From Nereocystis luetkeana (Eukaryota > Sar > Phaeophyceae > Laminariales > Laminariaceae), in the NCBI GenBank assembly GCA_031213475.1, contig JARUPZ010000026.1, forward strand, positions 6,741,785 through 6,805,784: a stretch of DNA of 64,000 bases. Direction: 5' to 3'. The stretch's first letter is position 1. Each line of letters begins with the position of its first letter. The notes under the pieces were generated by a model that was given only the letters and a program-made list of their open reading frames with translations, ran no database searches and had not been told where the DNA came from. A program made the position numbers and the translations under genes. Of the stretch, positions 1-62,400 are shown piece by piece.

Positions 1-711
1 GAATCCCATTTTCGGAGGGTGAGACGCGAGAGGCGCGGAGGGGGGGCGGGAGTGGAGGAGGGGAGGCAAGCTGGTGGCGGATGTTCATGAGGATGTCGCC
101 CAACAGGTTGAGTCCTGGCCAGTGTGGAGCTTGTAAGGCTCGCGTATCGTCACACCTGAAGCCGATGCCCCAGACGAGGTCGTAAGGACTTGCTTCGGCG
201 AGGAACTTGTCGCCGGTGTCTACGAGTTGTTGCAGTAAAGGGGGAGCCGAAAACTTGGTGAGGTTGCCCTCGAAAACGATGTCGTACCGATGTGTACCCA
301 ACGCTCTTGGTTAAAATTGGAGACGGAGCGGCCGGGGCGTTTTTGTTGTGCGGGATTCGGAGAGGACATAATCTTCCGGCGAGTTGCTGTGTCGCCGAAA
401 AGCTTGGCCTTTTCCGACATCATGTACTGTTCCGCACGGTTGTAGTGCTCGTAGTCTACGGCGAACGTCGAAGGGTACCACTGGGGAAAGACCGAGGAAC
501 GATCCAAAAAAAAAGAATTTGGGAGGGGCTCAGGGTCGATGGGAGCGGAGAGGGGGACGTTGTGTGGGACGTTGTCGGGGAAGGCGTGGGTGAGACGACT
601 TCGCCCCCCGAAAACGTGTGGGGTAATGTCGATTGTGACGAGGCCCCGGGAGGATGTACGTGACGGCGAGACACTCGTGACGGAGCTCCCAGGAGTCCCT
701 GCTAACAGCAT
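1..711 (-). pseudogene. NADAR domain (YbiA-like), frameshifted, running off the window
   Basis: The minus strand from 711 encodes a NADAR (DUF1768) domain. Visible hallmarks are a FPQWYPSTF-type opening, the signature YNRAEQYMMSEKAKLFGD at about residues 91-108, and a GRSVSNFNQERW segment. The frame breaks near 286-292. In the next frame the rest of the fold follows (DIVFEGNLTKF, then LVDTGDKFLAEASPYDLVWGIGF and a WPGLNLLGDILMNIR end) down to about position 60, and then a proline-rich tail reaches the window edge. Known members act on N-glycosidic or ADP-ribose-linked substrates: YbiA acts on riboflavin intermediates, and other NADAR proteins remove ADP-ribose from guanine. The domain lies downstream of the Gag-like region on the same strand, so it looks like cargo or a polyprotein domain of a retroelement. 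The shift means this copy is probably dead, unless a sequencing error or programmed shift explains it. A TAA stop lies just before the first ATG. Confidence 0.8.
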
Positions 712-838
712 TTATCGCATGCGGAGGAGGGAGAAACTCGGAAGAACATGCGGCACCTGTAGTAGTCCGTGCCCGGGGTGTGGGTGTCGGTACAGGTGGC
801 TCCTGGCATAATCTTGGTGACTTGGTCGAGTCTTCCGC

Positions 839-1441
839 TCATGAATCCGCGGGAAAGCCGCCCCTTGGGCCCAGGGAGAGTGGTGTGGTCAGCACGGGGC
901 GGGCAGCTACAAGTCCGGGAGATCCTGTAGACCCAACGGAGGTCGACGTATGTGCTGTCCGGGGTCGACGGACGCCGGTTGACGTGTGCCGATAACCTCG
1001 TTCGTCAGAAGACGTAGATGAGTTGGGGGTCGATGGCCCAGGGGGAGGAGCAGAGCCGGAGAGGGAGTGGATACCGCTGTTGGCCGTTGTTGTCGTGTCG
1101 CCCACAAGATTGGCAAGATCCGTAGACACTTCGGCGCACTTGGGCAAGGCGCTGCGTCGCGCATCGACTGGGGACACCGAGGGGAGCGTTGAGGGAGTGT
1201 TCCGTGTGCCCATCTCCTCCTGCCCACACCTCAAACCAACCGCTTGAACAAGGGAGCCAACCCTAGATCGAGTGGTTGATATTGAAGATAGGTTTGATGG
1301 GGGGAGAGATAAGGGGGATAGGTCGGGAGAGTAAAGTAGAGCCGGCGGATCCTGAAAAATACGCTGCACGAGGATCCAGAGAGGTTCCCGGCGCGGTTGC
1401 GTGTAGTGCTGCTGGTGAAGTCGCGAGAGGTTCTTCACCAT
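839..1441 (-). pseudogene. Ser/Thr/Pro-rich open stretch between Gag-like and NADAR parts
   Basis: A 200-codon minus-strand open frame rich in S, T, P and G, with no recognisable domain. It lies between the nucleocapsid-like tail and the NADAR domain on the same strand and has the same low-complexity composition as the Gag-like linker, so I read it as a linker of the same decayed polyprotein. No protease or reverse transcriptase motif is visible here. Confidence 0.3.
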
Positions 1442-1449
1442 CGGTTGGT

Positions 1450-1957
1450 CAGTTAGTACCGAAGGTGCCCGGTTGCCGGGAGTTTTGATTACCTCCGTGT
1501 TGTGAAGGATCGAGGCGCATGTTAGCTGGGGTAGTGGAGGTCTGGGTTGTGGGGCCGGTTACGGTGAGGGCAGATGAGGGAGGTCCTTGAGGGGAGGGGG
1601 GAGCGAGCTGTGGTGCCGAATTATCCCGAGTGTTGGTTGTTGGGAGAGTAGTTCGTCCACTGAGAGCTTGCAGCACGGCCGGAGTTGCTGTGGGAGCGCT
1701 CGTTTCTAGAATGGGAGTTGGGCCGGCGGTTGTTATTGGAATTGCCGGCAGAGTTGTGTCCCCTCGAGTTGGAACGCTAGGAATAAGAGTTCGAGTTTTG
1801 TTGTACAGTGCGCTCGTATTGTCCCCGACGGTATGAGAGCATATGTTGTTGCCACTGTTGAAAAGCGTAGCCTCCGTCGTCGAGTTGGCCAAGCCGGGGG
1901 ATGAGAAATACCTGACTTGTTTCTAAAGGGGCTTTGGCACGTTTTGACGCTGTGGTC
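1450..1957 (-). pseudogene. Nucleocapsid-like tail of the Gag relic (shifted frames)
   Basis: Downstream of the zinc knuckle the plausible coding sense moves to another frame. One piece is Q-rich (FQQWQQHMLSYRRGQYERTV, about 1875-1810). After one TAG it continues into a stretch dominated by N, S, R and H (about 1770-1620) that ends at a TAA. Basic, Asn/Ser-rich tails after a CCHC knuckle are usual in retroelement nucleocapsids. The stop and the frame changes show decay. Confidence 0.45.
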
Positions 1958-2953
1958 CTACCCGCCGCAGTTGAGGCATATGTCACGCCATATGCGGAGA
2001 GCGGTCGCTCTGGCATTAGCGCCAAGGAGCGGGCTCCAGAGAGGGGGGGCAGTGGTTGAAAACGTGGTAGAGACCATGTGCATTTCATCGAAGTGTTCAA
2101 GGGGCCAATGATTGTAGCCCAGAGTGAAAGGGCCAGTGTCTGGGGGCGTAGAGACGTTCATGACAAAGGGGTTGCGTTGGGAGCCTTGTTGATTCTGGCT
2201 GGAATGATTGCGTGAACGCGTATGCTGAGCAGGAGCCGATGACGGCGGGGACGACGAGAACGTCGTGTGGCCCCCGGAGGAAGTAAAAGAAAGATATTTT
2301 TCGCCATTTATGGCAGGTTTGTTATTCGTCGCATACACTTCATGAGCCTGCCACATGGGCGAGACTGAAGGAAAAGGCTCTACCGCAGTCATCAATTCGT
2401 CCGGGTACAATACCGGAGTCGAAGCTGGAACCTGTCTACTAACACTGGTACGCACTACCTCTAACACCATGGCGTCGCTAGGCTTGAAACCTTTTTCAGA
2501 ACCTTGCACCACCGATGTCAACTCCCTCAAAGCCCGCAAATAAATCGAATACACACTGCCCGTCGGTATTCCGAACGCCTGAAGCTTCTCGAATGCACGG
2601 CCTTGGTCGCCGTGGTCGAAGTGCGTGCTCAGCAAACGCAGTAGCAAGCGAAAGGCTGACGGTCCAGCAGTGTCCTTCTCCCGAAGGTGATCGGGCACCT
2701 GTTTGAAAAAGTTGTTGATAAGGAGGGACATCGGGGAGTTGGTGCCTGTCTAGGTTGCTTTCCGGAAACGCCGGTGAAGCGGGGTGACCCATCCAGGTGA
2801 CCAGCGCAGGGAGTCTAGAGTGCCATTCGGGGAGTCGTCACAGCGTGAGAGGATGTCCGCCAATACGAGTTTAACGCTTGCAATGAGTTGTTGAACTCCG
2901 ACACAGTCATCGGTTCCCGCGGGAGAAGGGAGTGGGTCGATGAGCTCCAATTT
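1958..2953 (-). pseudogene. Capsid-like region and CCHC zinc knuckle of a Gag-like relic
   Basis: One minus-strand frame runs through TGA (2956-2954), TAG (2752-2750) and TAG (1960-1958). Between the stops lie protein-like segments: KLELIDPLPSPAGTDD with a hydrophobic helix VQQLIASVKLVLADIL, then a 250-codon stretch with an FRLLLRLLSTHFDHGDQGRAFEKL helix region typical in feel of retroelement capsids. The frame ends in a zinc knuckle at 1978-1937 with spacing C-x2-C-x4-H-x4-C, and the third spacer residue of its x4 is the TAG. The shared frame on both sides of all three stops argues for point-mutation decay rather than separate genes. I cannot assign a retroelement clade from this part. Confidence 0.6.
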
Positions 2954-3778
2954 TCAGGAATCCAGGTCGATGTACTTGCGGTTAACATCAAAGTCGTGAC
3001 TACTAGCTGCGGTGTGGCGGGGCGTAGTTGCAGGTGCAACCGGAGGGACCGGAGCGGGAGTGGGTGTGACCAGTGTGGGAGTGGGCGTGCTGTTTGGCAG
3101 GGGGAGGGGGGGGGGGGATAGCGCCGCGTGATACGGAGAGGGCAGGGTCGCAACGGGGGCTGTGATGTGGGGCAGTGAGGAGTGAGCCACTGAATACTGA
3201 GGTGGTAGCGGTGTGACGGTGGGTGCGGAATTGGGGGGGGGGCAGACCTGTTGCGGCGCAGAGGGCTGATACTGGCCAGCAGGTGGAGCAATAGAGATTG
3301 CGGCGTTGATTTCGGGGGCAGGTTGGTACGGAGGGGGCGACGGCGTGTCCAGAAGATTGGTCGCCGCAAAAGAAACAGATAACGGGGCAATATCACAGTC
3401 AGTTACTCGTCTGTTCTCTGAATTAGTCCTCGTCGGTCGAAGAGGAGGAATAGTCGCCCTCGCTGCGCTGTCGTGGACGTTATTCGGGCCCGGGGGAGGT
3501 TCCGCTGTTACCGGGCCGGGGGCGGGTGGTGGAGCTGGATGATGACGTAGGACGGGTCGACATGTTTGAGTTGTTGTTGTTGCTGCTGCTGTTGTTGTCG
3601 CGGTCCTGGTCGTCGTTCGGGCACCAGCGGCTGCTTGGCAGACGGTTGTCCGAACAACCCGTCGCCCGCTGTTGGCGCTGACCGCGGGAGGCGTTTTATT
3701 CTGCAACGGTCGGCCAAGTGTGGTCGTATGTGGCATGAAAGGTCCGCAAGAGGGCGACCAACCTGAGTAGTTTGACAC
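2954..3778 (-). pseudogene. Proline/threonine-rich linker of the Gag-like relic
   Basis: A 274-codon minus-strand frame rich in P, T, A and Q, with polyproline-like runs. It is in the same frame as the capsid-like part, separated only by the TGA at 2954. Its upstream end overlaps the coiled-coil ORF in a different frame, so a frameshift between 3696 and 3778 joined them in the ancestor. It is low-complexity and carries no catalytic motif. Confidence 0.45.
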
Positions 3779-4565
3779 GCACGATGTCGTTGGTCACGTT
3801 AGGGAGAGACTCCAGGGCGTGACGGAGGGTGGTAGTGGCGGTAGAACGATAAAACCCCTTAATGGCGGAGGCAGCCGACGAGATGGCTGCCCGCCTGTTC
3901 TCCGGGACATGGTGAGACGAGATCAGTTGGCGGATAGAGACGTGCAGAAACGCGACGTCAGAAAATTCCAAGACAAACCTCAGCGGGGCAAGGTTTCTCG
4001 TGGGAGAAGTAGAGGGAGTCGGTGTGGCCGGGGCGAGGGCTGAAGAGTCAGCCGGGGGAGTCGAGGTAGCAACCGGGCCCGTGCGGGGGGGAATAAGGCC
4101 GAGGCCGGGAGTCGAGGCAGCGGCCGAAACCGCGCGGAAGGGAGTGGAGTCGACGCCTTGAGAGGCCAGAGTTAGGGCATGTTTGGCCCTCAGTGAGGCC
4201 ACCACTTTTTCCGCCTCCTCGATCGCGTCCCTCTCCTTCGTTTGTTTCCCCTTTAGGAGCCGAGAGAGTCGCGCTTCATGTGCGGCGCGTTGGACGTTGT
4301 GTATAGCCAGCCACTCCTGCAGCTCCGATACGGTCAGCTCGTTTTCTGGTACTGTTGATGAGACGGCTGCCCGTGTTCTCGCGGTGTCGGCCGGGTCGGG
4401 GTCGCGGGCGTCCTCCGAGGTGGTCGGTGCAGCAGTGATGGGGCTGGCTGTCGCGGTGTCGGCCGGGGCAGTGTCGTTGATGACGGAATGCGGGGTGTTG
4501 TCCCCGTCGTCCGAAGAGTAAGGTCCGAAGTCCAACTCTTCCTTCTCGTCTTTGACGTTAACCAT
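3696..4565 (-). pseudogene. Gag-like N-terminal ORF with acidic head and coiled coil
   Basis: A 289-residue ORF from the ATG at 4565-4563, chosen because the upstream part of the frame has leader-like composition. It has an acidic N-terminus (VKDEKEELDFGPYSSDDGD), an Ala/Thr/Pro spacer, then a long amphipathic helix region (ELTVSELQEWLAIHNVQ through RDAIEEAEKVVASLRAKHA, about residues 75-135) and a C-terminal helical part ending TWPTVAE. Context makes it the N-terminal part of the Gag-like unit that continues in the next frame to the zinc knuckle and NADAR domain. It could instead be a host gene fragment. No named family is recognised. Confidence 0.5.
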
Positions 4566-5210
4566 CGTTGCTGTTGGAAGAAGCCGACGGCAAGGAAGCG
4601 AAGGGAGGGGAGGAGGGAGGGAAGGGGAACAGGTGTGAGTCCTAAGGGATCGTGCCATGTGGCGCAGCGAGCGGGGTGTGGGAGGGGGTGGGCGCTTGGG
4701 GGAGATGTCATCCATGTGCGAGCAGAGGTTATAGTGACCGGTCGTGGTGCCGCAGTGTGTTCGTGTGCGCCCTCCGTCCATCTGAGTGTACTGTAGTCTC
4801 GTTCGGCGCTCTGGTGTAAGCCTAGTTATATATGGGCTCAGGTGGTCCCGCTCGTGTCCCGTGATGGAATGAGGTATAGAGATACGACCTTGTAGACCCG
4901 TACTAAGAGAAAGTGTAGAGACACTTCTGTGGATTTGGCTGTAGTAACGGGGTGTAGAGACACTCCGTTTGTTCGCAACAGTATCTTGGGTTTCTTGAAC
5001 GACGCCGGCTGGACCGGGTTTTTCGTACTGGGGGGGGTGGAAAAAGGACCCGAGCCCGGGCTGGTTTGGGAGGGCGGGAGTCATATACCCGGGAGAGGAA
5101 GGGGAGGGAAAAGCCGAAAAACAATAAAAATGAGGCAAAAGTCCGGAGGAACGCGGGTGCGGGAAGGTGGTGTCTGTCGAATGGATGGAAAAGGGTACCC
5201 TACCAACCAT
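4566..5210 (-). promoter_or_regulatory. Leader/possible LTR upstream of the Gag-like ORF, with TATA-like box
   Basis: The stretch upstream of the Gag-like ATG is open but compositionally not protein-like. A TATA-like run (CATATATAAC on the minus strand, about 4835-4826) lies about 265 bases upstream of the start. The short near-repeat GTGTAGAGACACT occurs twice, at about 4912-4924 and 4951-4963. A partner LTR would lie outside the window, so the LTR reading is untested. Confidence 0.3.
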
Positions 5211-5459
5211 GTACTCGACTCGCTTGGAGACTCAAAAAAAAAACTCTCGGTAAATCCATCCTCCAATTCTTCATTCTGTATCTGAAGACCGCTGTCGGTT
5301 GCTGTCAGATGAATACTGCTGGTGTTTGCGTCTTCTACGTGGCGAAATGTGGTACCGTTCGTCGGGAGCTCGACTGAATTTATATCCCGAAAAAAAATAC
5401 CATCAGCACGGCCCAAAATCCCAGTTGTACCGTTTAAAATTCCTCAAAATTATTCAAGG
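5211..5459. other. Unassigned, no gene seen
   Basis: AT-rich with short A-runs. I see no convincing coding frame, RNA gene or repeat apart from fragments resembling the adjoining minisatellite. Confidence 0.4.
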
Positions 5460-6400
5460 TTACAATAGTGTGCAATTCTCGAAAAAAAATGCGATTATGC
5501 CGGACCAAAATTACTCGTGGATCTTCGAAAATTTGGCCATATTTATCCAAAGCTGCAAAAGTGTGCAGATCCGGAAAAAAAATGCCATTCTGGAAATTTA
5601 AGTATGTTTCATCGAAAAGTGCATCACCCGGGGGACTTGCGTGTTATAGGATGAATCTACGTAGGTGTCGTCAAAAAAATCATCACTCACGGAACCGGCG
5701 CATTTTGGCAAAAAAAAAAAAAAAGTGCTAGTAGGACGACCAGAATTAACAGACAAAACGGAAAAATGGGAACGAAACAAAAAATGAGAACGGACGCTTT
5801 TTTTTAGAAAGCAAACCAATTGTGTACAACTCCAAGAAAAAAAGTTGACAGTCCTGTGGGGCTGTACAGCAGCCTTCGAATGAGCTGTCGCTCAGGCTGG
5901 AAGTCCTCGGCATCGCCGCGGTAGCCAGCATCTAGAGAAATCACAATAGAGCCAGCGTATATCGCTTTTTGCGCCCACCCGAAGGCACGAGATGGAGTGA
6001 CCGTTCTGACGAGCTCCTCTCACAGGGCTGGCCAAGGGGTTTCGCAGGATCATTTTGGTTCTCTGATACACCACATGGTTCTGGAGATACTGCTTGGTTC
6101 TCATTTTAGGCTTCGTTCCCATTTTTCCGATTTGTCTGTTAATTCAAGTATGTTTCGTCGGATAGTGCATCACTCACGGGACCTGCGCATTTTGGCAAAT
6201 CTGAAAAAAAAAATGCGATTACGACGAGTAGAATTTATGTATGTTTCGTCAAGAAATTTATTACTCACGGGACCTGCGCATTTTGGCAAACCCGAAAAAA
6301 ATGCGATTACGACGAGCAGAATTTACGGACGTGTCGTCGAAAACCTCATCACTCACGGGACCTGTGTCCAAAAATACACTCTCATTGCGAAGTGATAAAC
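5460..6400 (-). repeat. Degenerate 88-91 bp minisatellite with intron-like features
   Basis: The units share ACTCACGGGACCTGCGCATT followed by TTGGCAAA, an A-run and ATGCGATTACGACGAG. The last three units start near 6181, 6272 and 6360, giving spacings of 91 and 88 bp. More diverged units extend left to about 5460. Read on the minus strand, a typical unit has a T-tract (ending CAG in one unit), about 23 bases, then GTGAGT, which resembles acceptor, tiny exon and donor. The array is continuous with the 3' end of the minus-strand ORF at 6261-6890, so it looks like repeated duplication of that ORF's end. Confidence 0.65.
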
Positions 6401-7030
6401 AAAAAGAGTAGTATTTTGCGAAAGCGTCAGATGGGTCATCGGTGCAAAATATGCTCTCTAAAACGTCACGCTCGGGAGGGTCCACTAAATTTGTGAGGGA
6501 GGGTGGGGCGCTGCGTTCGGGGCTTCTCTGAGACGCAGTACGTACAGGGTCCAGGTAATTTTCAAGCTCATCAGGGCTTAGTGAGGACAAATGGACTGCG
6601 TGCTCTGTCGGAGGGAAATCTGACAAAAATTCAGCATCGTCCAACTGTGCGTGTTGCAACTCATCATTCATGAACGGAGCGACTAGGTCCGTGGGTGGTA
6701 GCGGGTGGGGTATCTGCAACCTGTTCATTACCCGCGCAAAATGACTGCGTGGTGAAGGACGAGATGCTGGGCGTTCGCAAAAAAAATCATACATGGCCTC
6801 ATCGCGAGGATACGTTATATGAAAATCGTATGGGCTACAAGCGACGGTCGACTCTGTGGGTGTGTACGGCTGAATATTTTTGGTTTTCAACCGTGATGGT
6901 TGGAGAGAGTAACTTCAACGCAGCAATAGTCTCTGTTGGTGTCGACATGAGCGCCTTCGCGTCAGCAACAGAGATGTGCCTTTCAGTGACTTCTGGTTCG
7001 TCATCGAGGTTCAAACTATAAATAGTTTCA
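6261..7030 (-). pseudogene. Unrecognised acidic protein relic, possibly of an LTR element
   Basis: A 209-codon minus-strand ORF (6890-6261) with ordinary protein composition, acidic and rich in P, D, E and S (for example LSSLSPDELENYLDPV and NLVDPPERDVLESIFCTDD). Upstream, another frame also looks coding (LNLDDEPEVTERHISVADAK through ALKLLSPTITVENQK, about 7020-6885), so the ancestral frame was broken near 6880 in an A-rich stretch. The C-terminal 30 or so residues coincide with the minisatellite unit. A GTGAGT at about 6355 could be a donor. I recognise no family. Confidence 0.4.
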
Positions 7031-7384
7031 TGAAAAAGAATGATCTGAGGGGAAATATCACTACGGAAGGCTCGTCAGACGGGTCGATCATTGGAAACGC
7101 ACGGTCGCGAAGGCGAAAGTTGCTTAACGGGCGCGCGTGCTATGGCGGTTGTCTCTACAGGCGGGCGCAATGCGCGCGCGTTGTGTTACGTTGCAGTGCC
7201 ACCCAGGGAGAACGCGAACGCTGATAGACAAAAAGATGAAGACAAAAAAAAAAACAAGGACGAAAAAAAAAAAACAAGGACTAAAAAAAGGGAGAAAGAC
7301 GAAGTAAATACAGTGACTCGAATCATGCCAAAACAAAAAAAGGAGGAAGGCTCACACCTAAAGGGAGAAGGCTCGAAGAACAGG

Positions 7385-7700
7385 TCGAGGTGATGGCCAC
7401 GAGGTGAGATGTAGTCCTGCCGACGACGCCAATTGTGATGTGGGAGAGAAGGTAAGGGTGCCAGAGATGGTGATCCACAGAAGAAGTGTGACAGGTGCCT
7501 GTGCTTGGCCAAACTCAGACGCAGTTCGTATGACGTTCTCTTTTATTATAGGTGTGCGGCTTGCTCGAAGGGGCAAGAGACGAGTGAGCAAGGAGGGGGG
7601 GGGGAAGCAGCTGGTTTTTGAAGACAGAGAAGTATCATCTGTCTTCAACCGGCTATGATCTACTGGCAAGGGAACACACGTCACCCTCAACTTCAATAGT
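7385..7700 (-). mobile_element. Possible LTR end and primer-site-like sequence
   Basis: On the minus strand a TGTCACACTTC stretch, about 50 bases of pyrimidine-rich sequence and then ATTGGCGTCGTCGGCAGG (about 7435-7418) resemble an LTR/leader junction followed by the 'TTGGCG' type sequence common downstream of gypsy LTRs. The relic at 7030-6261 would then be its Gag. No second LTR was found, so this is tentative. A-rich runs at 7230-7290 (plus strand) lie between. Confidence 0.25.
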
Positions 7701-7704
7701 GGAA

Positions 7705-8007
7705 AACACCGTATGTTGTATGGTATGTGTTGACGGTATGGTACTGGAAAAATACAGTATATGGTAAGGTACGTTCGCGGTATGGTACCATGGTACGATG
7801 TCGTGGGTGTATTACATGGCTAAATTTGCCTGGTGGTATGGTATGTTTCAGTATGTAAGGTCCGTAAGGGTCGAATACGTCGTACGAATAGCATCTGTAC
7901 CAAGCTGGTATATCGGCCATTGGAAAGAGTTCGAAATTATAAGCCTTGCGGACAGACAGACAGATTTGCATTTACCAAAAGAGACTCAGTTCTACAAACT
8001 GAGATTA
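7705..8007 (+). repeat. Dispersed ~300-bp repeat, copy 1
   Basis: Closely matches 19140-19443. Shared blocks are a GGTATGG-rich start, GGTATGGTACCATGGTACG, GCTAAATTTGCCTGGTGG, GGTCCGTAAGG, a GACAGACAGACAGA tract and CTCAGTTCTACAAA. The plus-strand frame is partly open but shows no family. This is a transposable-element family of unknown type. The TCAGTTCTACAAACTGA end is a small palindrome. Confidence 0.75.
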
Positions 8008-9204
8008 AATAGTATTACCTGGTGCCGGTAGTTGTTTTTTTCGACTTCAAGAAGAAGAGAAGGTAGTTGTTTTTTCCGACATCAAGAGGAAGAGAACCTA
8101 ATCGCAAAACTCGTACCTAGGTAGGACTTTCGCCCTCTAAAGTCCCAGATCCCGAAAAAAGGGTGTATTACGGTCATGGGCTGTGGGCGTCTCGTCTTGC
8201 TAGCGCGTCGAAAATTTGAGGCAGGGGGTACATCCCGCGGGCCTGCTTTCCATGTTGACCACCCGTGTGGCTGGAAAAGGCGGGTGTATCCCCCCCTTTG
8301 ACAATTTTCCAAAAATAACAGCAGCAGCGGCGCTCGTAGCTGGGGCTTCGAAAATCACAACACATACGACGATACTCAAGAAATAATACATCGAAGGCGG
8401 AATATTGTCACGCATACGACGACATCAGGATACTAGAGTGACGCAACACGTGAGATGGCGTACCAGGTATCGAGAAATCATCCGGCCAAGTATAACTTCC
8501 GGGCATACAACGTGCACGGCATGCATTGCGTCGCAACACCATGAAAAACAAATAAAAAGTCTTGGTGCAATTTCAGCACTACTTCACGTGCTTGCACCTG
8601 ACCTGATGATAACTGATACGGGTATGTGATAATAGTACTATACGATCAGCAGCACTGACGGCTAACCCCGTGCAGGCGCGTCATAGGTACGCACTATCGT
8701 AACAGTACTTCATTTCTAAACAAGTAAAATCGATTACGTTCGGGTGTGCTATCCTGGTGCTGCAGCCTAAGTTGAGGGCGGCATCGCGACACAGTCAACA
8801 ACGGAGCCGCCTTGAGTCCTGATCTAAATTTACAGACCGTCATTGCTGTCAGCAGGAAAGCAATCAAGCAGAAGTGGAGAATTTGGACACGCAACACATG
8901 TTTCTCGCTGTGCACCGTCCGTACAGCCTGCGTTCGTTCGCGTTCGAGTACGGCAACATAAGTGAAACCACTACATCTTCGGAGACTAGCCACCCACGAT
9001 ATTCCAACAACCCGTCAGTCAGCTCAGCCCAAGCCATGGCAACGTTCCCAGCATACCCACACCTACTACATAGAAAATATATACCGCTGCATACCAGGGA
9101 TTACTCTGTATATCAAACTACGGTAAACATCTAATCTGGAGCTGGCGCCAGAGCGACGCACTACAACAACAAACCTATTGCCTGCGAGAAAACAAGAACA
9201 AAGA
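8008..9204. other. No gene recognised
   Basis: Short open frames only. There is a weak internal duplication near 8030-8095 (GTAGTTGTTTTTTCGAC-like twice, with AAGAGGAAGAGAA). Nothing else is supportable. Confidence 0.4.
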
Positions 9205-23600: not shown

Positions 23601-26600
23601 TCACCTTTGTGGGGATAAGGACCGCTTCCGCCTCTGGCGTTTACTGTCCCGATAACGCCTGCCATCGCGCGGAGACCGCGATCTGCTGTCAAACCCACCC
23701 CTTCTAACTCTGTTGCTGTCATAGTCTCCATCCCTCCACCCCCCCCTGCCGAGGTCATCGCGCGTGTTGTATCTACTGTCCTCCCTGCGACTGCGGCCGC
23801 TGCTATCCGAGGAGCCTCGGCTGCCCGACCGCCCGAAGTCCTCGTATCGGCGGCGGTGATGGCCATCGTCACGGCTGCGCGGCCGATCATGATCGTCGCG
23901 CCCGTCGTACCTCCTTTTCTGCCTGCTGCTACTGCCACAACTGCTGCTTTCGCCAGGGCTGTGCCTGGGGCTGTCACGGCTGCGCGGCCGGTCATCCTCG
24001 CCGTGTCTTCTCCGCTCTCTTATACCACTACTGCTACTGCTGCCCCGATTGCTCCGTCTGGAGCTGTCGCTTCTCGACCGACGACGCGAAGGGGAGGACG
24101 ACGTAGGATAGCGACGAAACCCGAGTGGGTTCGCGTCTAAAGCGGGCCTGCTACCATCGCGAGAAGAACAAGGAGCTGCAGGCTTTTCCTCGACCAACTT
24201 CCGCCCATCGTGGGCTTGGCCTTGACCATTACTTTCCGGGTGCCCGTTGGCCTCCCCATAAACTTGGCAGTGCCCATTGCCCTGCGAGTGCCCGTTGGCC
24301 TCCCGACTATCTCCAAGGACGCTTTCAACGGCCGGTTTCGTAGTTGCGGCGGGGTCCATCTCCCGAGCGTTTGCGCGCGCGAGAATCATAGCTTTGAGCT
24401 TCGGGTCGATAACCTGACCAGGTGTTTCGTCGCCCAACTTGCCCGGGGGTTGCTCGGGAGGGCCGGAAGGAGGGAGAACTTGTTCCGCCTCCACCACTTC
24501 CTCTTTCTCGTCGCATCGCGGCGTGGAAGAGCCCGGTGTAGAAGGGGGAACAAGACCCTGCGTTCGCGAAGGCGGGGGAGGCGGGGGAGACGCAAGCAAG
24601 TCCGGAAGCTCAAGTGGAGCACGTGGCATTTGGGGGATCGCACCGTCGTCTGCGCCGGACTCCACCGTAGCTTCGCCTAAAAGCTCGGCAACCTCCGGCG
24701 GCAGCTGCAACATGCTTGGGGGAACGCCGCCCCCTTGCCTCTCCGGCTGACGATCGAAACGAACCGCCGGCCGGATTGCGTTTGCCACAATCGGCGCGAG
24801 CCGGCTCGGGGCCCGCCACGCAACCTTCGCAACTGTTCCATTGGGCAAAAGCGATGGGTCCGAGGGCGCTGGCATTTCGTGGGCACCGGACAGACTCCGC
24901 GCCGCCACGTTTTCGGCTAGAGGCTTCAGTTCTTCGCCAGGGGGGAGTGGCGAGGTCGCACAGGGCGCCGCGGTCGAAAGGCCAGCGCCGGAGCTGCCCC
25001 CTAGCCTGCGAGGTTGGACCCATGCAGTGCGTGGTGATACGGTGCCCCCAACGGGCACTTTGTTCGTGTTGACACGGCGAGAAACTTCCAAAGGGGTGCT
25101 CCAAGGCACTTGGGCAACCGGAGCCGAAGGCAGGGATGGCATCGTCGGCGCGGTATCCCTGACGTCGCCGTTGACCTCGCCCGCGGCAGCAGTCAACAAC
25201 GGCAGAGGCACAGGATCGTCTTCGACAGTCGCTCCGTCAGCTGAGGGAGCAGCCGCAGGAGCACCAACGGGGGGCACTTGCCTACTGCTTCGAATATCGG
25301 CAAGAAATTTCTCGAACCCGGGAGGCTCGCCAGTGCCGTCAACGTTTTCGTCTTCTTCCGCTTGCGCTTCCTCCTCTTGTGTACAATATGCTGACCGCAA
25401 CGCATCCGAATGCTCTCCCGTTCCTTCCGAGTAAGAGAGCTGTACGACGTCTGCGGGATAGGTCCGCTCCATCTCAATGGCATCTTCCGCCCCCGCTTCG
25501 CTGCAAAGCTCCATCTCGTCATCTGCGGAGACGTCGTCTGCGTCATTTACCGGGCCGCCATTCATCATCATGCTTAGCAGAAGCTCGCGTCCATCCTCCT
25601 CGTCCCGGTTTCCCTCCGCTTCTTCCTCCGTGGGATTTTGCTTCTGCGGTGGCGACAAGCCCGCACGTCGTGGGGAGCCCTCGGCCTTGCGCCGGACCTG
25701 GGCAAGACGGTCGGACAAAATCCCCGAAGGGGCCACCGGCGCGGCTTCTTCCTCCGCGGGCTGTTGCTGCCGCGGTGGTGACGAGCCCGCCTCTCGTGGG
25801 GAGTTCTCGGCCTTTCGCCGGACCTGAGCAAGACGGTCGGACAAAAGCACCGTAGGGGCCACCGGTACGGCAGCCGTTGAAATCTCCCCACCGTTGTGCA
25901 GGCGGGCGCCGTCCGCTACGCATTCCACTTCCCGACCGTCATCCTCCCCCGCCTCCCCCACCTCCGCCCCCGCCCCCGTTCCCCTTCCCGCAGTGTCTCT
26001 CTGTTTGTGCTTCCCACCAACCGCGACTGCGACCGCCGCCCCACTCTCCTCCCCCAAGCCCGAAGCTGTTATAATCACACCCCCATTCGCCACGTTGGGG
26101 GTTGGTGCTGCTGCTGACACGGACAGCTTTGCTCGGTCACGGTCACTCCCATTGGCCGGCCCCTGCGCGCTCGAGGGCGCTTCCGTCAACGGCGACGATA
26201 CCGGGGCGCTGACCTGCCCCGCTGTTGGCGGCACCGGATGCTGTGGCGGGGTTGGCGCTCGCGGCGTAACCGGCCCCGTGTGCGACATCGGCATGGCGCC
26301 GTGAGCGCCTGGGGTCGGGGTAGATGGAACGGCCTTAGTCGCGGCCCCAGCAGCGCGCGTAGCGTTTTCATCAGAGGCAGAGGTGGGATTGAGCCCAGGT
26401 TTGGTTGCTCCATCATCCGCTAACGAGTCCTCTGGAGGTCCAACTGGCATCTTCTCTGTGGACACTTCTTCGCGTGAAATGCCAGTCTGCGCGCAGGACC
26501 ATCGCGTGTCAGGCGCGGGCCGACCCTGCCGCCCCCCGACCAACCCTGAGCGGCGGGGGAGCACGCCTATGTCCCCGGGCACGTGCAGGCCATCGACGGG

Positions 26601-27084
26601 TCGAAACGTTTCCGTGGTGACCGCCCAGCTAATCGAGTTCAACAACGGATAGGCCAGCGCGGGCTGATCTTGGTTTCGACCTTCGTTTGTGCCGCCGCCG
26701 GTTTCACTTTTACGCGCTTGCATCGAAGGGTCGATCTCGAATTTAGACGCATCAGACACGTCGTAGGACGGGACGACCGGCGGGGCGTGTAACGGGCCTG
26801 AAGCCGGCGGCCGCTGAGGCTGCTGCCGAGACGGTGGTTGGGGCTGCTGCCGGGGCGGTGGCTGAGCCTGCTGCCGAGGCGCCGGCAGAGGCCGCTCTTT
26901 GGGCGCAAAGAACAAATTCTTCGTCGCCTTGTTCGCAGGAGCGGGAGCAGGCTGACCTTTACTGTATGCTGACGTCAAACTTTTTTTCGCTATCCGCGAG
27001 CCACCATCACCTTGAGAAAGCTGGGTAAGGCCGGGAATTTCCGCATGTGAAGGCGCCCTCGAGTCGCCAGAGTTCCGCCTAGGC
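23601..27084 (-). CDS. Gene 1, large 3' exon: proline/acidic-rich protein with RS-rich C-terminus
   Basis: This exon starts at 27084 after GTGCAG and is open to a TGA at 23603-23601 (about 1160 codons). The protein has a basic start (PRRNSGDSRAPSHAE), Q/P-rich repeats around PPRQQPQPPSRQQPQRPP, and two tandem copies of LSDRLAQVRRKAE...SPR (about 25850-25660) with VAPTVLLSDRL / VAPSGILSDRL. A long acidic part follows, then a proline-rich part, and about 150 C-terminal residues rich in RS, SR, RD and DR, ending KRSLSPQR. RS tails usually act in nuclear RNA-processing or chromatin proteins; that is inference. The same frame stays open upstream of 27084 but with non-protein composition, hence the acceptor choice. 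The last codons overlap AAAG|GTGAGC, a good donor, so the gene may continue further left instead of ending here. Confidence 0.65.
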
Positions 27085-30000
27085 CTGCACGCATGGATTT
27101 GTTGGGGACCGACGCAAAAGAGACAGCTTACGCGGGAAATTCGGCATCCACAAACGACGACCACAAAACACTTGCATTGCTGCATATCACGTACCAGGGT
27201 ATGGAGAAGCGACAGAAGCGACCGTATAAAAAACACACGAGCACGCCAGCCTGGAACCGCAAATTGCCTGTTCGTCCAACATTTTAACATCGATCGGCGA
27301 TATGACATCCAACAACGCGACAGGCACCTTCGAATTGCACTACGAATGAATGCGAATATCATACTGCAAGCGTAGAGTGGACAGTCCCCACCTTGGCCAA
27401 ACGCTTCCTTTTGACACATCGTTGACAACGCTCGCGCAACACGTTGCGATACAGCAATGAATGAAGGGAAACGGTCAAAGGGGGGTTGTACCGCCGCCCT
27501 CTTCAGCCAAACCATGGGGGTAGAGAAAACAGCCCCGCGGACAAGGCGTTCGCCCCGCGCATGGCCCAAATCTGCCTCAAAACAAATTATTGCGGGCGCA
27601 ACAAGCCCACAGCCCATGCAGAGCACGTTCACTCTCTTTATTTTTGGGCGTTTTGGGGGGGCTGACGGCACGGTGGCGCAGGAGGGTGCAAAAGAGATCC
27701 CTGCCTTCGACCGCAACTTGGGGAGGTATGCCCCGTATTTCTACTACACCAGGTGGTATATATCCCGGTTAGGCTTTCATTTCCCACCATTTCACCGAAC
27801 GCATGCCCCCTTACGACACAATTCAAACGAAGGCCAAGCTACAGCAGTGGGTCTCCACGTCACAGTTCAACAGCCCAAACAGATCGACGGCGAAACATCG
27901 AGTAGTTGCGATCGGAGTTCACCAAGTAAATGTGCAAGAACCCGTAGCACAACTAAAATAAAAACGCAGTTATTTTTTCTTATCGCTTATCAACAAGAAA
28001 AAAAAAAAAAAAAAAATGTTTGAATTTGGAGAGACACGCGGTGGAGAAACCGTACTCGACGACAAACACGACGCGTGGCGACCTGCACAGGGTACACGCA
28101 TCTACCAAAGTGGAGAGTTTCCATATTATTGCGCGCGCATTCTGTGCTTCATCGAGACCGGTCTTCACCACGTGTCCTCCGAATTGAAAGTTATGTTTTC
28201 TACTTTTTTTTGTAAAGATAGTATTTTCGTTGAAACAAGCAACACGACAGTCGTCGGTGTAGAGCAATTTTCGTCCCGCCGCGGGGTTTGCGCGTTTGCG
28301 CAGTGAACTCCCGATCGGAACTATTCCATATCCGCCGTGGAACTCTTCGGACTGATCAACAGTGACGAGGAGACCTACCGCAATTTGACCTACAGTATAC
28401 CTGATACGCCTCAAGCTGCTTAAAGTGGTCAAATGGGGCATGTTTGAGGTCATAATGGGGCATGTTTGAGGTCAAAATGGGGGGAAAATGGTAGTCGAAA
28501 AGGGGTATTACACAACTAGCTGGGATTGTATCAACAGTGCGGGGGTCCACCAACCAAGTTGTGGTCAAAAGCGGGGGTGCGCCACGGTGCTGGCAGTGCC
28601 AATAACGTGGCCGACGAAAAAAGGATGTACCAGGTACGTGCTCTGCATGGGCTGATGGGCGTATTGTTAGGACAACTTTGGGCGACTTGCTAGCGGTTGT
28701 GGCACGCGTGGGCGGGAATCTTCCGAGGACCCGTGTTCCCTATACCCAATATGCGAGTAGTGCTGTGATGCCGGACGGGGAAATATCGAAGTATGCTGAA
28801 ATTTTACGAGGACTTGCATGGGGATTACGTTGCTACCCAATTTATTCAAGATATATATCAACGACCTGATAGTAGCAGTCGAAGCGGCAAAGCAGGGAGT
28901 CACCGTGGGGGAAGATACGGTGTCGGGATTGATGTTTGCGGGTGACGTCGTGGGGACATCAAAAACACACAAAGGATTGCAGAAACAAATAGAGAATGCG
29001 TTAGAATACACTGGGAAATGGAGGGTGACGGCGAACGTCAAGAAGTGCGCAGTAGTTGCATGTAACGAAGATAAGGTGAACCCGGTAAAGTTCAGTTGGA
29101 AGTGGGGAGAAGATGAATTACCAATCGTAGACCAGTATACGTGCTTGGCGTAGAGATCTAAAAAAACTGCTCTTGGGATACACACATAGCAAAAGCAATA
29201 GGAAAGGGTAAAGCACACGTAGACAAGATGGATGTGATCCTAACAGACTCACACCTTGACAATAGGATCAAGAGATATATCCTGACGAATGTGAAAGTAC
29301 CAAAGCTAGAATATTTAGAAGAAGGATGGGAAGAGAACGAGAAGTTCGTAGAACAGTTGGAAACAGTGTAGATGACAGCAGCTAAATAACTACTGAGATG
29401 CTCAAGTACGACTAGTAAAGTATCAAGAGCAGAACTGGGGATGTGCCCATTCAAAACAAATAGAGACATGAGAAAGTTGAAGTGGCAATATAAAGTAAGG
29501 AACATGCCAAAAAAGAGCTTGCCAGCCATAATCGATAGAGCTGTATGGGAGAATATAAGTAAAGGGCGAATTGGTATAGGGTGGGATAGCGTAGTTGAGA
29601 AAGTATGGAAGGATATAAGAGAAAGCCCAGAAGAACGGATGTCCGCAGAGAAGTTTGGGAGGTACAAGGCAGATATAGAATCAAGGATAAAGAGAAAGGC
29701 TAGAGCTAAGAAACAAGCTGAACCCGGGAGAAACACGTAGAAATATACGGGGGATAAAGCGAGGGGGGAGGAATGATATTTGCACGGTCCAATGGACTTC
29801 ACGAAAACGCTGAAACTGCGATTTTGGGTAGGCGACGCGGACCTGCCAGAAAGAAGAAAGAGCTAATACCAGTAGCCGGGAGGAGGAGGAAATACATGCA
29901 CAGATGTGCCCGTGTGACAAAGTATAGAGAGTAGAACTCACACAGTAGAAGTGTAAAATGTACACGTAGGAACGGGATGTGGTAAAAGAGATGAGGGAAA

Positions 30001-60419: not shown

Positions 60420-62400
60420 ATGCTGGTTATGCTGTATAACTGGATATGGAAAAACGAGTACGCACCTAGGAGGTGGAGAGAAGGAGTAGTAGTAAACTTA
60501 GTAAAGAAAGGAGATGAGGCTGACCCGGGGAACTATAGGGGGATAACGCTACTAAGCACAGTAGTAGGCAAAACATTTTGTAAGATTTTGAACGATAGAA
60601 TGGGAACGATGATGGAGAAGGAAGACAAAATAAGCGAAGGGCAAGCAGGGTTTAGGCGAAACCGTAGCTGCGTAGACCATGTGTACACTCTAGGTAAGAT
60701 AATCCAAGGTAGGAAAGACGCGGGACTACCAACGTACTGTTTCTTTCGAGATGTACAGAAGGCCTACGACACAGTATGGAGAAATTGGATTGTGGGAAAA
60801 ACTATGGGAAATAGGAATCAGAGGAAGGATGTTGGAGAATGATGAACAATATGACGGAATGTGCGAGAAGTGCTGTGATGCTGGACGGGGAAATATCGAA
60901 GTATGTTGATATTTTACAAGGAGTTGCACAGGGATGTACTTTGTCACCCAACCTATTCAAGATATATATTAACGACCTGATAGTAGCAGTCGAAACAGCA
61001 AAACAGGGAGTCACCGTGGGAGAAGATACCGTGTCGGGATTAATGTTTGCGGATGACTTCGTGGGGATATCAGAAACACCCCAAGGATTGCAGACACAAA
61101 TAGAGAAGGCTCTAGAATACACTAGGAAATGGAGGGTGGCGGCGAACGTCAAGAAATGCGCAGTAGTTGTTTGTAACGAAGATAAGGTGAACCCGACAAA
61201 TTTCAGTTGGAAGTGGGGAGAAGATGAATTTGCCGATCGCAGACCAGTATACGTACCTTGGCGGAAAAATCTCAAAAGACTGCTCTTGGGATACACATAT
61301 AGCAAAAGCAATAGGAAAGGGTAAATCACACATAGGCAAGATGGATGCGATCCTAACATACTCGCACCTTGACACCAGGATTAAGAGATGTATCCTGATG
61401 AATGTGATAGTACCAAAGCCAGAATATGCAGGAGAAGTATGGGAAGGGAACGCGAAACTCGTAAACCAGTCCGAAACAGTGCAGATGACAGCAGCTCAAG
61501 TAAGACTAGTAATACAGTATTAAGAGTAGAACTGGGAATGCACCCACGCAGGACAAATAGAGATATGAGAAAGCTGAAATGACAATATAAAGTAAGAACA
61601 TGCCAAAAAAGAGGATGCCTGCCATAGTTGATAGAGCTGTATGGGAGAAAGTAACCGAAGGGCGAGCTGGAATAAGGTGGGATAGCGTAGTTGAGAAAGT
61701 ATGGAAGGGTATAGGGGGAAACTAAGAAGAGGTGATGTTCGCCGGGAAGTTTGGGAAGCACAAGGCAGAAGTAGAAGAAAGGATAGAAAGAAGGGAAAGG
61801 CTAGCGCTACGAAACTAGGTGGACTCGGAAAAACACCTAGAGATACACGGGGGATTGAGGGAAGGAATAGGAATGAAAACGTATTTCCACGGCCCAATGA
61901 ACTTCGCGAAAACGCTGAAACTGCGCTTTCGTGTAGGTGACCTGGACTTGCCAGAAAGAAGAAAGAGGTATACCAGTAGCCGGGAGGAGGAGGAAATAGA
62001 TGCACAGATGTGCCCGTGTGGCAGAGCGATAGAGAGTAGAACTCACATAGTGGGAGAATGTGAAATACACAAGGAGGAACGGGATGTGTTAGAAGAGGAG
62101 ATGAGAGAAATAGACGAATGTGACGTGGAGGAGTTCGGTACAGTAGATAGCAGCGAGAAAACGGTCGCTATCCTAGGAGATAGATGGTGGCCACAGGCGG
62201 CCAAACAGGAAGGGGATAAGACAAGCAAACAGTTTCTATGTAATATATGGAAACAACGTAGTGAGCGGCCAATTGTTGGAGGTGGCTCCATTAGGAGTAG
62301 GAACGGTGCTCCGTCTCGAAGGGGATGCGTGGTCAATGGTCAAATGACTAAGGCAAGAAACGAATGAGTACCTCCCCCCCGGTGGCCATACAACTGCGGC
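60420..62400 (+). mobile_element. LINE with frameshifted reverse transcriptase, 5'-truncated
   Basis: Reverse transcriptase blocks in order: NYRGITLLSTVVGKTFCKIL, EDKISEGQAGFRRNRSCVDH, CFFRDVQKAYDTVW (motif A Asp), then after frame changes near 60790 and 60838, GVAQGCTLSPNLFKIYINDL, VSGLMFADDFVG (catalytic FADD at 61046-61057), KWRVAANVKKCAVVVCNEDK, then another frame change to QYTYLGGKISKDCSWDTHIA. A separate downstream frame (61819-62367) ends in CPCGRAIESRTHIVGEC, the C-C-H-C motif common at LINE ORF2 ends. The left edge is abrupt C-rich sequence, so the endonuclease is missing. At least three frameshifts make it inactive, though the catalytic Asp residues are kept. Closely related to 28740-30420. 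Confidence 0.85.

Follow-up and report, generated by a model that had tools for sequence, protein, structure and literature searches.

Background

The locus described here raises the question of whether an enzyme of the NADAR family has become part of a retrotransposon in the brown alga Nereocystis luetkeana and, if so, how it is expressed and what it would do there. It occupies the first 4.5 kb of a stretch of 64,000 nucleotides (contig JARUPZ010000026.1, positions 6,741,785 to 6,805,784 of the forward strand), which was analysed as a whole and is called the window below. An original prediction had placed a Gag-like head, a CCHC zinc knuckle and a NADAR domain, in this order, on one strand and had proposed that they belong to a single element. 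The window almost certainly holds a Ty3/gypsy-type element that carries NADAR in its Pol. Our best explanation for the locus as a whole, which we consider likely, is a decayed copy of such an element, in which a conserved UGA would be read through and a packaged NADAR would act on guanine-ADP-ribose. A NADAR-bearing Gypsy architecture was already published in 2025 for Ectocarpus (PMC12477816), and the element is a further member of that known kind, in another genome.

Gag, NADAR and reverse transcriptase in one element

All parts of the element in window positions 1-4565 lie on the minus strand, in the order that had been predicted, with a capsid-like region between Gag head and knuckle. They are listed below from Gag to Pol; L033 is the nearest copy by DNA, and L009 is the stretch in which the element runs on past the left edge of the window.

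3697..4565, minus strand: Gag head (N-terminal region), in the open frame 3696-5231, with the ATG at 4565 picked by eye
2954..3793, minus strand: proline-rich middle of Gag, an open frame in a different frame (frame-shifted copy), its DNA 80-83% identical to L033
1958..2749, minus strand: capsid-like region of Gag, with at least 150 matches in the genome and a ratio of nonsynonymous to synonymous changes (dN/dS) of 0.23 against L033, without a Pfam family
1937..1978, minus strand: CCHC zinc knuckle, motif CLNCGG*DHSVKTC, with an in-frame TAG at 1958-1960
1449..1922, minus strand: end of Gag, closing at the conserved TGA 1449-1451 (GTFGTN*PTDGEE), and in this copy out of frame with the knuckle
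1413..1440, minus strand: putative RNA stem of 8 bp with a 12-base loop, beginning 8 bases past the TGA, recognised by a stem search and compensatory changes
502..1448, minus strand: N-terminal linker of Pol, low complexity, broken frames, recognised by its likeness to the family-B linker
68..501, minus strand: NADAR domain, with a frameshift near 295, matched by PF08719 in two halves
1..67, minus strand: Pol between NADAR and protease, running on into L009 (VALLDTGSPQTFI, then RVT_1), from frames past the window edge

The genome of 465 Mb (1987 contigs) was searched for further copies. A NADAR profile search gave 778 candidates, of which 150 were scored, the window's own domain not among them; all 150 were above the cut-off, and 48 belonged to open frames longer than 2000 amino acids. 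The comparison with Gag covered these 150 NADAR matches and 133 of the 150 Gag matches listed, so that the following linkage counts are lower bounds. A Gag relative lies 1449-2258 bases upstream, on the same strand, of at least 43 NADAR matches out of 150 (44 pairs), and the gag-pol junction motif lies 948-1729 bases upstream of at least 100, again on the same strand. No other arrangement of Gag and NADAR within 4 kb occurred among the matches listed, nor any other arrangement of junction motif and NADAR within 2.5 kb among the junctions listed.

The copies were sorted into three families: A, comprising the window copy and L033 (L026 was also treated as A); B, comprising L006, L011, L013, L014, L016 and L018; and C, comprising L001-L005, L007 and L008. 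Their NADAR domains are 50-52% identical between B and C, and those of A share about 51% identity with each of the other two families. One family-B copy, on C1 (L018/L019), is bounded by long terminal repeats (LTRs) of 519 and 493 bp, which are 93.6% alike, have the termini TGTGA...TCACA and are flanked on both outer sides by a duplication of CAAT. Relatives of this LTR, 90-97% alike, lie 3' of Pol in L012, L015, L017 and L020, and no 5' partners of these four were found in the stretches examined.

Because of the fixed linkage and the LTR-bounded copy with its target-site duplication, Gag and NADAR can be assigned to one Ty3/gypsy element, as had been proposed; the two observations that would have spoken against it, NADAR copies always lacking an adjacent Gag and Gag-like exons of a spliced host gene, were not made. 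The spliced host gene was rejected on account of the LTRs. Judged by the window copy alone, which is broken at several places and in several frames, a host NADAR gene might have come to lie by chance beside a dead Gag relic, but with the same arrangement repeated genome-wide and LTRs around one of the copies such an accident is hardly credible.

The class of the element was read from longer Pol frames. In L013 a frame of 2428 amino acids, scanned in five pieces, holds NADAR from residue 372, followed by RVT_1 (E = 1.9e-28), RT_RNaseH (1.8e-28) and Integrase_H2C2 (2.4e-15); its match to rve (3.8e-6, 27.5 bits) is under that family's own cut-off of 32.6. In the window's family NADAR and reverse transcriptase (RT) are separated by a stretch with a DTGS motif, in family C such a motif stands behind NADAR, and in family B (L013) the aspartyl protease profile reached an E value of 0.13 at best. 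The assignment to Ty3/gypsy rests on the order of RT, RNase H and integrase. Put together from several copies, the element runs from the Gag head over the capsid-like region and the CCHC knuckle to the UGA, and from there through linker, NADAR, protease and RT to RNase H and integrase. By its sequence, the NADAR domain is of the YbiA type and sits near the start of Pol, as it does in the N-terminal region of Pol in Gypsy-12_Ec32 and its kin in Ectocarpus (PMC12477816). Gypsy-12 has a putative chromodomain (PMC12477816), whereas no Pfam chromodomain was matched at E values up to 10 in two C-terminal Pol pieces examined here (L013:124-1407, minus strand, and L019:347-1258, plus strand).

Some observations weigh against regarding the long copies as complete elements. 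L011, L013, L014, L016 and L018, with Pol frames of 2248-2428 amino acids, have no capsid-like region near NADAR among the matches listed, and therefore a long Pol frame is no proof of a complete element. Gag head and knuckle are in different frames in L011 and L018, the two looked at, and the LTR-bounded copy is itself damaged, with L in place of H in its knuckle and a TAG ahead of the junction. Such family-B copies may represent a derivative from which Gag was deleted and which complete copies helped to spread.

The copy in the window

The predicted NADAR domain was borne out by the profile search in two halves, one in the frame 220-711 of the minus strand (PF08719 profile positions 9-87, E = 1.1e-15, 58.7 bits) and one in the frame 2-310 (profile positions 87-162, E = 3.4e-20, 73.4 bits), both above the cut-off of 35.1 bits. 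Upstream of it, a piece of the frame 842-1558 is 41.7% identical to the family-B Pol linker over about 60 amino acids (E = 7e-5 to 8e-5). The knuckle was likewise found where it had been expected, interrupted in this copy by its TAG, and lies 527 bases from the TGA. Its relatives read without a stop: CLNCGGQDHSVKTC in L033 and L026, and CLNCNGTDHSQKTC or ...KAC in L011, L013, L014 and L016.

The capsid-like region at 1958-2749 is called Gag-like because of its place 5' of the CCHC motif and because its genomic matches are paired with NADAR. The best other genomic copy among the matches listed is 83% identical and lies inside an 822-amino-acid frame. Pfam gave no family for this region except FAM153 at E = 0.31; none was found at E = 0.01 for the Gag regions of the elements, and for the Gag of L034 none at E values up to 10. 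The frame of the Gag head is open from 5231 and has earlier ATGs, so that the start at 4565 is a choice made by eye. The likeness of this head to those of family B was also seen by eye, and BLASTP at an E value of 1 made no join between them.

Window base 1 corresponds to base 9786 of L009, where the element continues on the same strand. Leftward, the end of NADAR is followed by the motif VALLDTGSPQTFI, taken by eye for an aspartic protease, and then by RT (PF00078, E = 3.8e-20). L033 is 80-90% identical in four pieces over the window part and 91% identical in L009, and the similarity stops at about L009 base 7194. The window copy has been traced as far as RT. Neither L009 nor L010 was matched at the DNA level by L035, a C-terminal Pol stretch, whose single match in this region of the window (7434-7692) falls outside the L033-matching stretch. 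No other Pol family was found in the subset of the remaining L009 and L010 frames that was scanned, and no LTR-like pair between window positions 1-9000 and L009 or L010.

A LINE-type RT frame was noticed by eye at about 2548-5100 of L009, minus strand, to the left of the point at which the similarity to L033 stops; here L009:3628-4467 matches RVT_1 with E = 2.3e-30. This RT may have inserted into or beside the Pol of the element.

A conserved UGA at the gag-pol junction

In families A, B and C Gag ends with AAC TGA C, and the frame past the TGA is the Pol frame. The clearest layout was found in the copy on C18, where a Gag frame of 898 codons containing the capsid-like match and the knuckle ends exactly at the TGA, and NADAR begins 315 codons beyond it in the same frame, within a Pol frame of 2372 amino acids. 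As to the check suggested with the original prediction, whether gag, knuckle and NADAR share an uninterrupted frame between LTRs, LTRs were found around the copy on C1, and an uninterrupted frame was not, Gag being separated from Pol by the conserved UGA.

With a search pattern that allowed any codon at this position, TGA was found at 81 of 82 family-B junctions, the other being TGT; in family C, where 100 of 105 junctions were listed, there were 91 TGA, three TAA and six sense codons. The genome has 296 occurrences of the looser pattern AACTGACMRRYCGA and 39 of the reversed pattern. A decayed arginine codon was tried as the origin of the TGA and rejected, as CGA was present at none of the 82 family-B and none of the 100 listed family-C junctions.

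From this conservation, and from the stem described below, we think it probable that the UGA is read through in a programmed way. The alternative is that it is not read through, and that spliced RNA, re-initiation or selenocysteine accounts for the junction. For this speaks the comparison of frames, since Gag and NADAR matches are in one frame in 15 of the 44 pairs and in different frames in 29; for Tca2 of Candida albicans, the passage of the UGA is described as unclear (PMC2194720). Further frame data weigh on the same side: knuckle and TGA share a frame in none of three family-A copies (the window copy, L033 and L026, all frame-shifted), L033 has a TAA in its Gag frame ahead of the TGA, and the pair on C6 has different frames despite its long Gag and Pol. 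Against this, where a Gag frame above 890 is paired with a Pol frame above 2000 amino acids, the two are in one frame in three of four cases, knuckle and TGA share a frame in all five family-B copies (in L018 with an intervening TAG), the C18 copy continues from Gag into Pol in frame, and the TGA is conserved with a covarying stem eight bases downstream. We regard the absence of readthrough as unlikely.

A predicted RNA stem downstream of the UGA

Programmed readthrough would be aided by a structure behind the stop codon, and families A and B share a predicted stem of 8 bp with a loop of 12 bases that starts eight bases after the TGA. No other perfect stem of 8 bp with a loop of 3-20 bases occurs in the reverse complement of window positions 1-5300, where base shuffles gave 1.1 such stems. 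An alignment of 18 distinct rows from A and B has 97.2% of its cells paired, compared with 26-69% for slid versions of the stem. Two of the eight pairs are changed on both sides, from G-C to A-U, giving 9 doubly changed cells. Not one of 500 shuffles came up to the stem in percentage of pairing, in doubly changed cells or in covariation score. One of the double changes lies inside family B and the other between A and B, so that they perhaps go back to few events.

Other measures weigh against a special role of this stem. The number of pairs changed on both sides was reached in 321 of 500 shuffles and that of further pair types in 478. Perfect 8-bp stems are several in L011 (5, shuffles 2.6) and L033 (9, shuffles 2.4), and single-sequence folds of the 103 bases after the UGA are ordinary (z = -0.63, -1.69, 0.08 and -2.11). 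In family C another stem, 6 bp long, starts at the same base. Taken together, the conserved UGA and the covarying stem appear to be good but not conclusive evidence for programmed readthrough. Scanned for Rfam families and tRNA genes, the window gave no match.

In murine leukaemia virus the structure downstream of the stop codon is a pseudoknot. Compared with that virus and with Tca2, the structure proposed here is a predicted stem of 8 bp whose loop has 12 bases. In all three a single stop codon splits gag from pol and a structure, putative in the present element, follows it, the codon being UGA in Tca2 (PMC2194720) and UAG in murine leukaemia virus (PMC4178896).

Catalytic residues and constraint on the NADAR domain

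In the oomycete NADAR, E43 and E125 touch the distal ribose and K50 touches the adenine and the phosphates; E125 is the mark of the YbiA subfamily (PMC11543638). The structure 8bau (chain A), which matches the family-B domain with E = 8.7e-18, was taken as the NADAR of Phytophthora nicotianae because its numbering is two above that of the paper (PMC11543638). E. coli YbiA (2b3w) matches with E = 2.3e-6. The element domains resemble these YbiA-type enzymes (8bau, 2b3w) in sequence and in the catalytic E/K/E residues, and differ from them in being part of a Gag-Pol polyprotein and, in the window copy, at the equivalents of Y84 and D86.

Equivalents of E43, K50, D130 and W133 are kept in all 14 copies from the three families outside the window, and that of E125 in 13 of them. 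Judged by eye, the window copy, in its two halves, keeps all five as well. Within family B dN/dS of the domain is 0.23-0.59 in five of six pairs, the sixth being undefined, and within family C it is 0.22-0.54 in the 15 pairs without L008. Family A has values of 0.23 for RT, 0.23 for the capsid and 0.61 for the linker. By these ratios, which come from small counts, constraint on NADAR can be seen in families B and C, and in family A it is weak.

The domain could instead be catalytically dead and contribute to Gag-Pol through binding or as a structural module. Several results weigh in that direction: the NADAR halves of family A have dN/dS of 0.58 and 0.64, on few changes; the six family-C pairs with L008 reach 0.52-1.52; L007 has K in the position of E125; and the window copy has, by eye, F for Y84 and Q for D86. 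With the catalytic residues so nearly complete in the 14 copies and in the window, we find a dead enzyme rather improbable, and lean towards a guanine-ADP-ribose hydrolase activity being retained in the intact copies. That activity is known from DarT1-linked NADARs and from the oomycete NADAR, which has no DarT link (PMC11543638).

Origin of the domain and enzymes of the host

The nearest relatives of the family-C domain outside the element are bacterial: among the best 80 of 200 matches, two Myxococcota metagenome genomes had 59 and 60% identity. Viral contigs reach 55%. The outside relatives of NADAR in the Ectocarpus lineage, also from a brown alga, are mainly bacterial too (PMC12477816). 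In a NADAR tree of 141 rows, which included no other eukaryotic NADAR, the 7 element rows need 2 label changes, and the tree does not fix their place among the bacterial and viral rows; a single origin of the element NADARs would be compatible with this tree.

As a separate observation, 65 viral-contig loci (L036-L100) carry NADAR domains 42-55% identical to that of the element, several of the contigs being longer than 300 kb.

Among host enzymes, Tpt1/KptA gave one match, in three pieces, on C13, and PARP one piece with E = 1.1e-5. No match to DarT was found in the host genome, although intron-split or diverged transferases could escape such a search; this result weighs against a guanine-directed role of NADAR. 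Repeats of the EsV-1-7 type (PF19114) are expanded in brown algae; here all 150 scored candidates (of 1710) were above the cut-off, which, with the Ectocarpus precedent, fits a brown-algal host.

Proposed role of NADAR in the element

We infer the following course from readthrough through packaging and activity to benefit. Gag would be the main product, and a minority of ribosomes, aided by the stem, would pass the UGA. NADAR would be made solely as part of Gag-Pol, which would carry it into the particle together with protease, RT, RNase H and integrase. There it would remove ADP-ribose by hydrolysis from guanine in the RNA or cDNA of the element, or act on related adducts of ADP-ribose, so that the template would stay fit for reverse transcription. 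A nucleotide-care enzyme of another family and with another substrate, the betaretroviral dUTPase, holds the position between nucleocapsid and protease that NADAR has here.

That NADAR protects the element's own nucleic acid is a tentative proposal, which we would put somewhat below an even chance. More doubtful is its extension, in which brown-algal Gypsy elements would package a guanine de-ADP-ribosylating enzyme against a host defence by nucleic-acid ADP-ribosylation, as a eukaryotic counterpart of the DarT-NADAR conflict, a reading that supposes a further transferase in the host. Between these two in plausibility, and still rather unlikely, we place an action on small ADP-ribose products, on RNA-repair intermediates such as those of the host Tpt1/KptA, or in RNA processing. 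Such a role fits a host with a Tpt1/KptA match and none to DarT; processing of RNA intermediates was proposed by the Ectocarpus authors (PMC12477816), and a survey of the virus world allows RNA repair and small ADP-ribose derivatives as targets. Against it, NADARs are known to hydrolyse guanine-ADP-ribose (PMC11543638), and the residues of those enzymes are kept in the element.

Other features of the window

Upstream of the Gag head, at 5400-6400, several imperfect repeats around GACCTGCGCATTTTGGCAAA were seen by eye. The open frame at 23601-27740 on the minus strand encodes 1379 amino acids with an end rich in arginine and serine; it matched no Pfam family at E = 0.01 and is perhaps a host gene. 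Two stretches of the minus strand, 61520-62167 and 29158-29862, have long open frames that resemble, by eye, the antisense of the LINE type seen in L009.

Conclusions

A literature search brought up no further paper on NADAR in LTR elements that was apparent by title. The Tx1 LINEs of Crassostrea gigas are likewise retroelements with NADAR, and unlike the present element they are non-LTR elements and carry it in the first open reading frame, ORF1 (PMC12477816). The genome in which the element is now described has 465 Mb, against 200.2 Mb in Ectocarpus (PMC12477816). The UGA and its putative stem are described here, and the available text of PMC12477816 makes no mention of them for Ectocarpus.

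To the known architecture the present analysis adds the conserved UGA with a covarying stem as a likely route of expression, and the finding that the catalytic residues are mostly kept. NADAR is a regular component of a large retrotransposon lineage beyond the Ectocarpus genome. If the enzyme is active in particles, this would be direct evidence that ADP-ribosylation of nucleic acids bears on eukaryotic retroelements.

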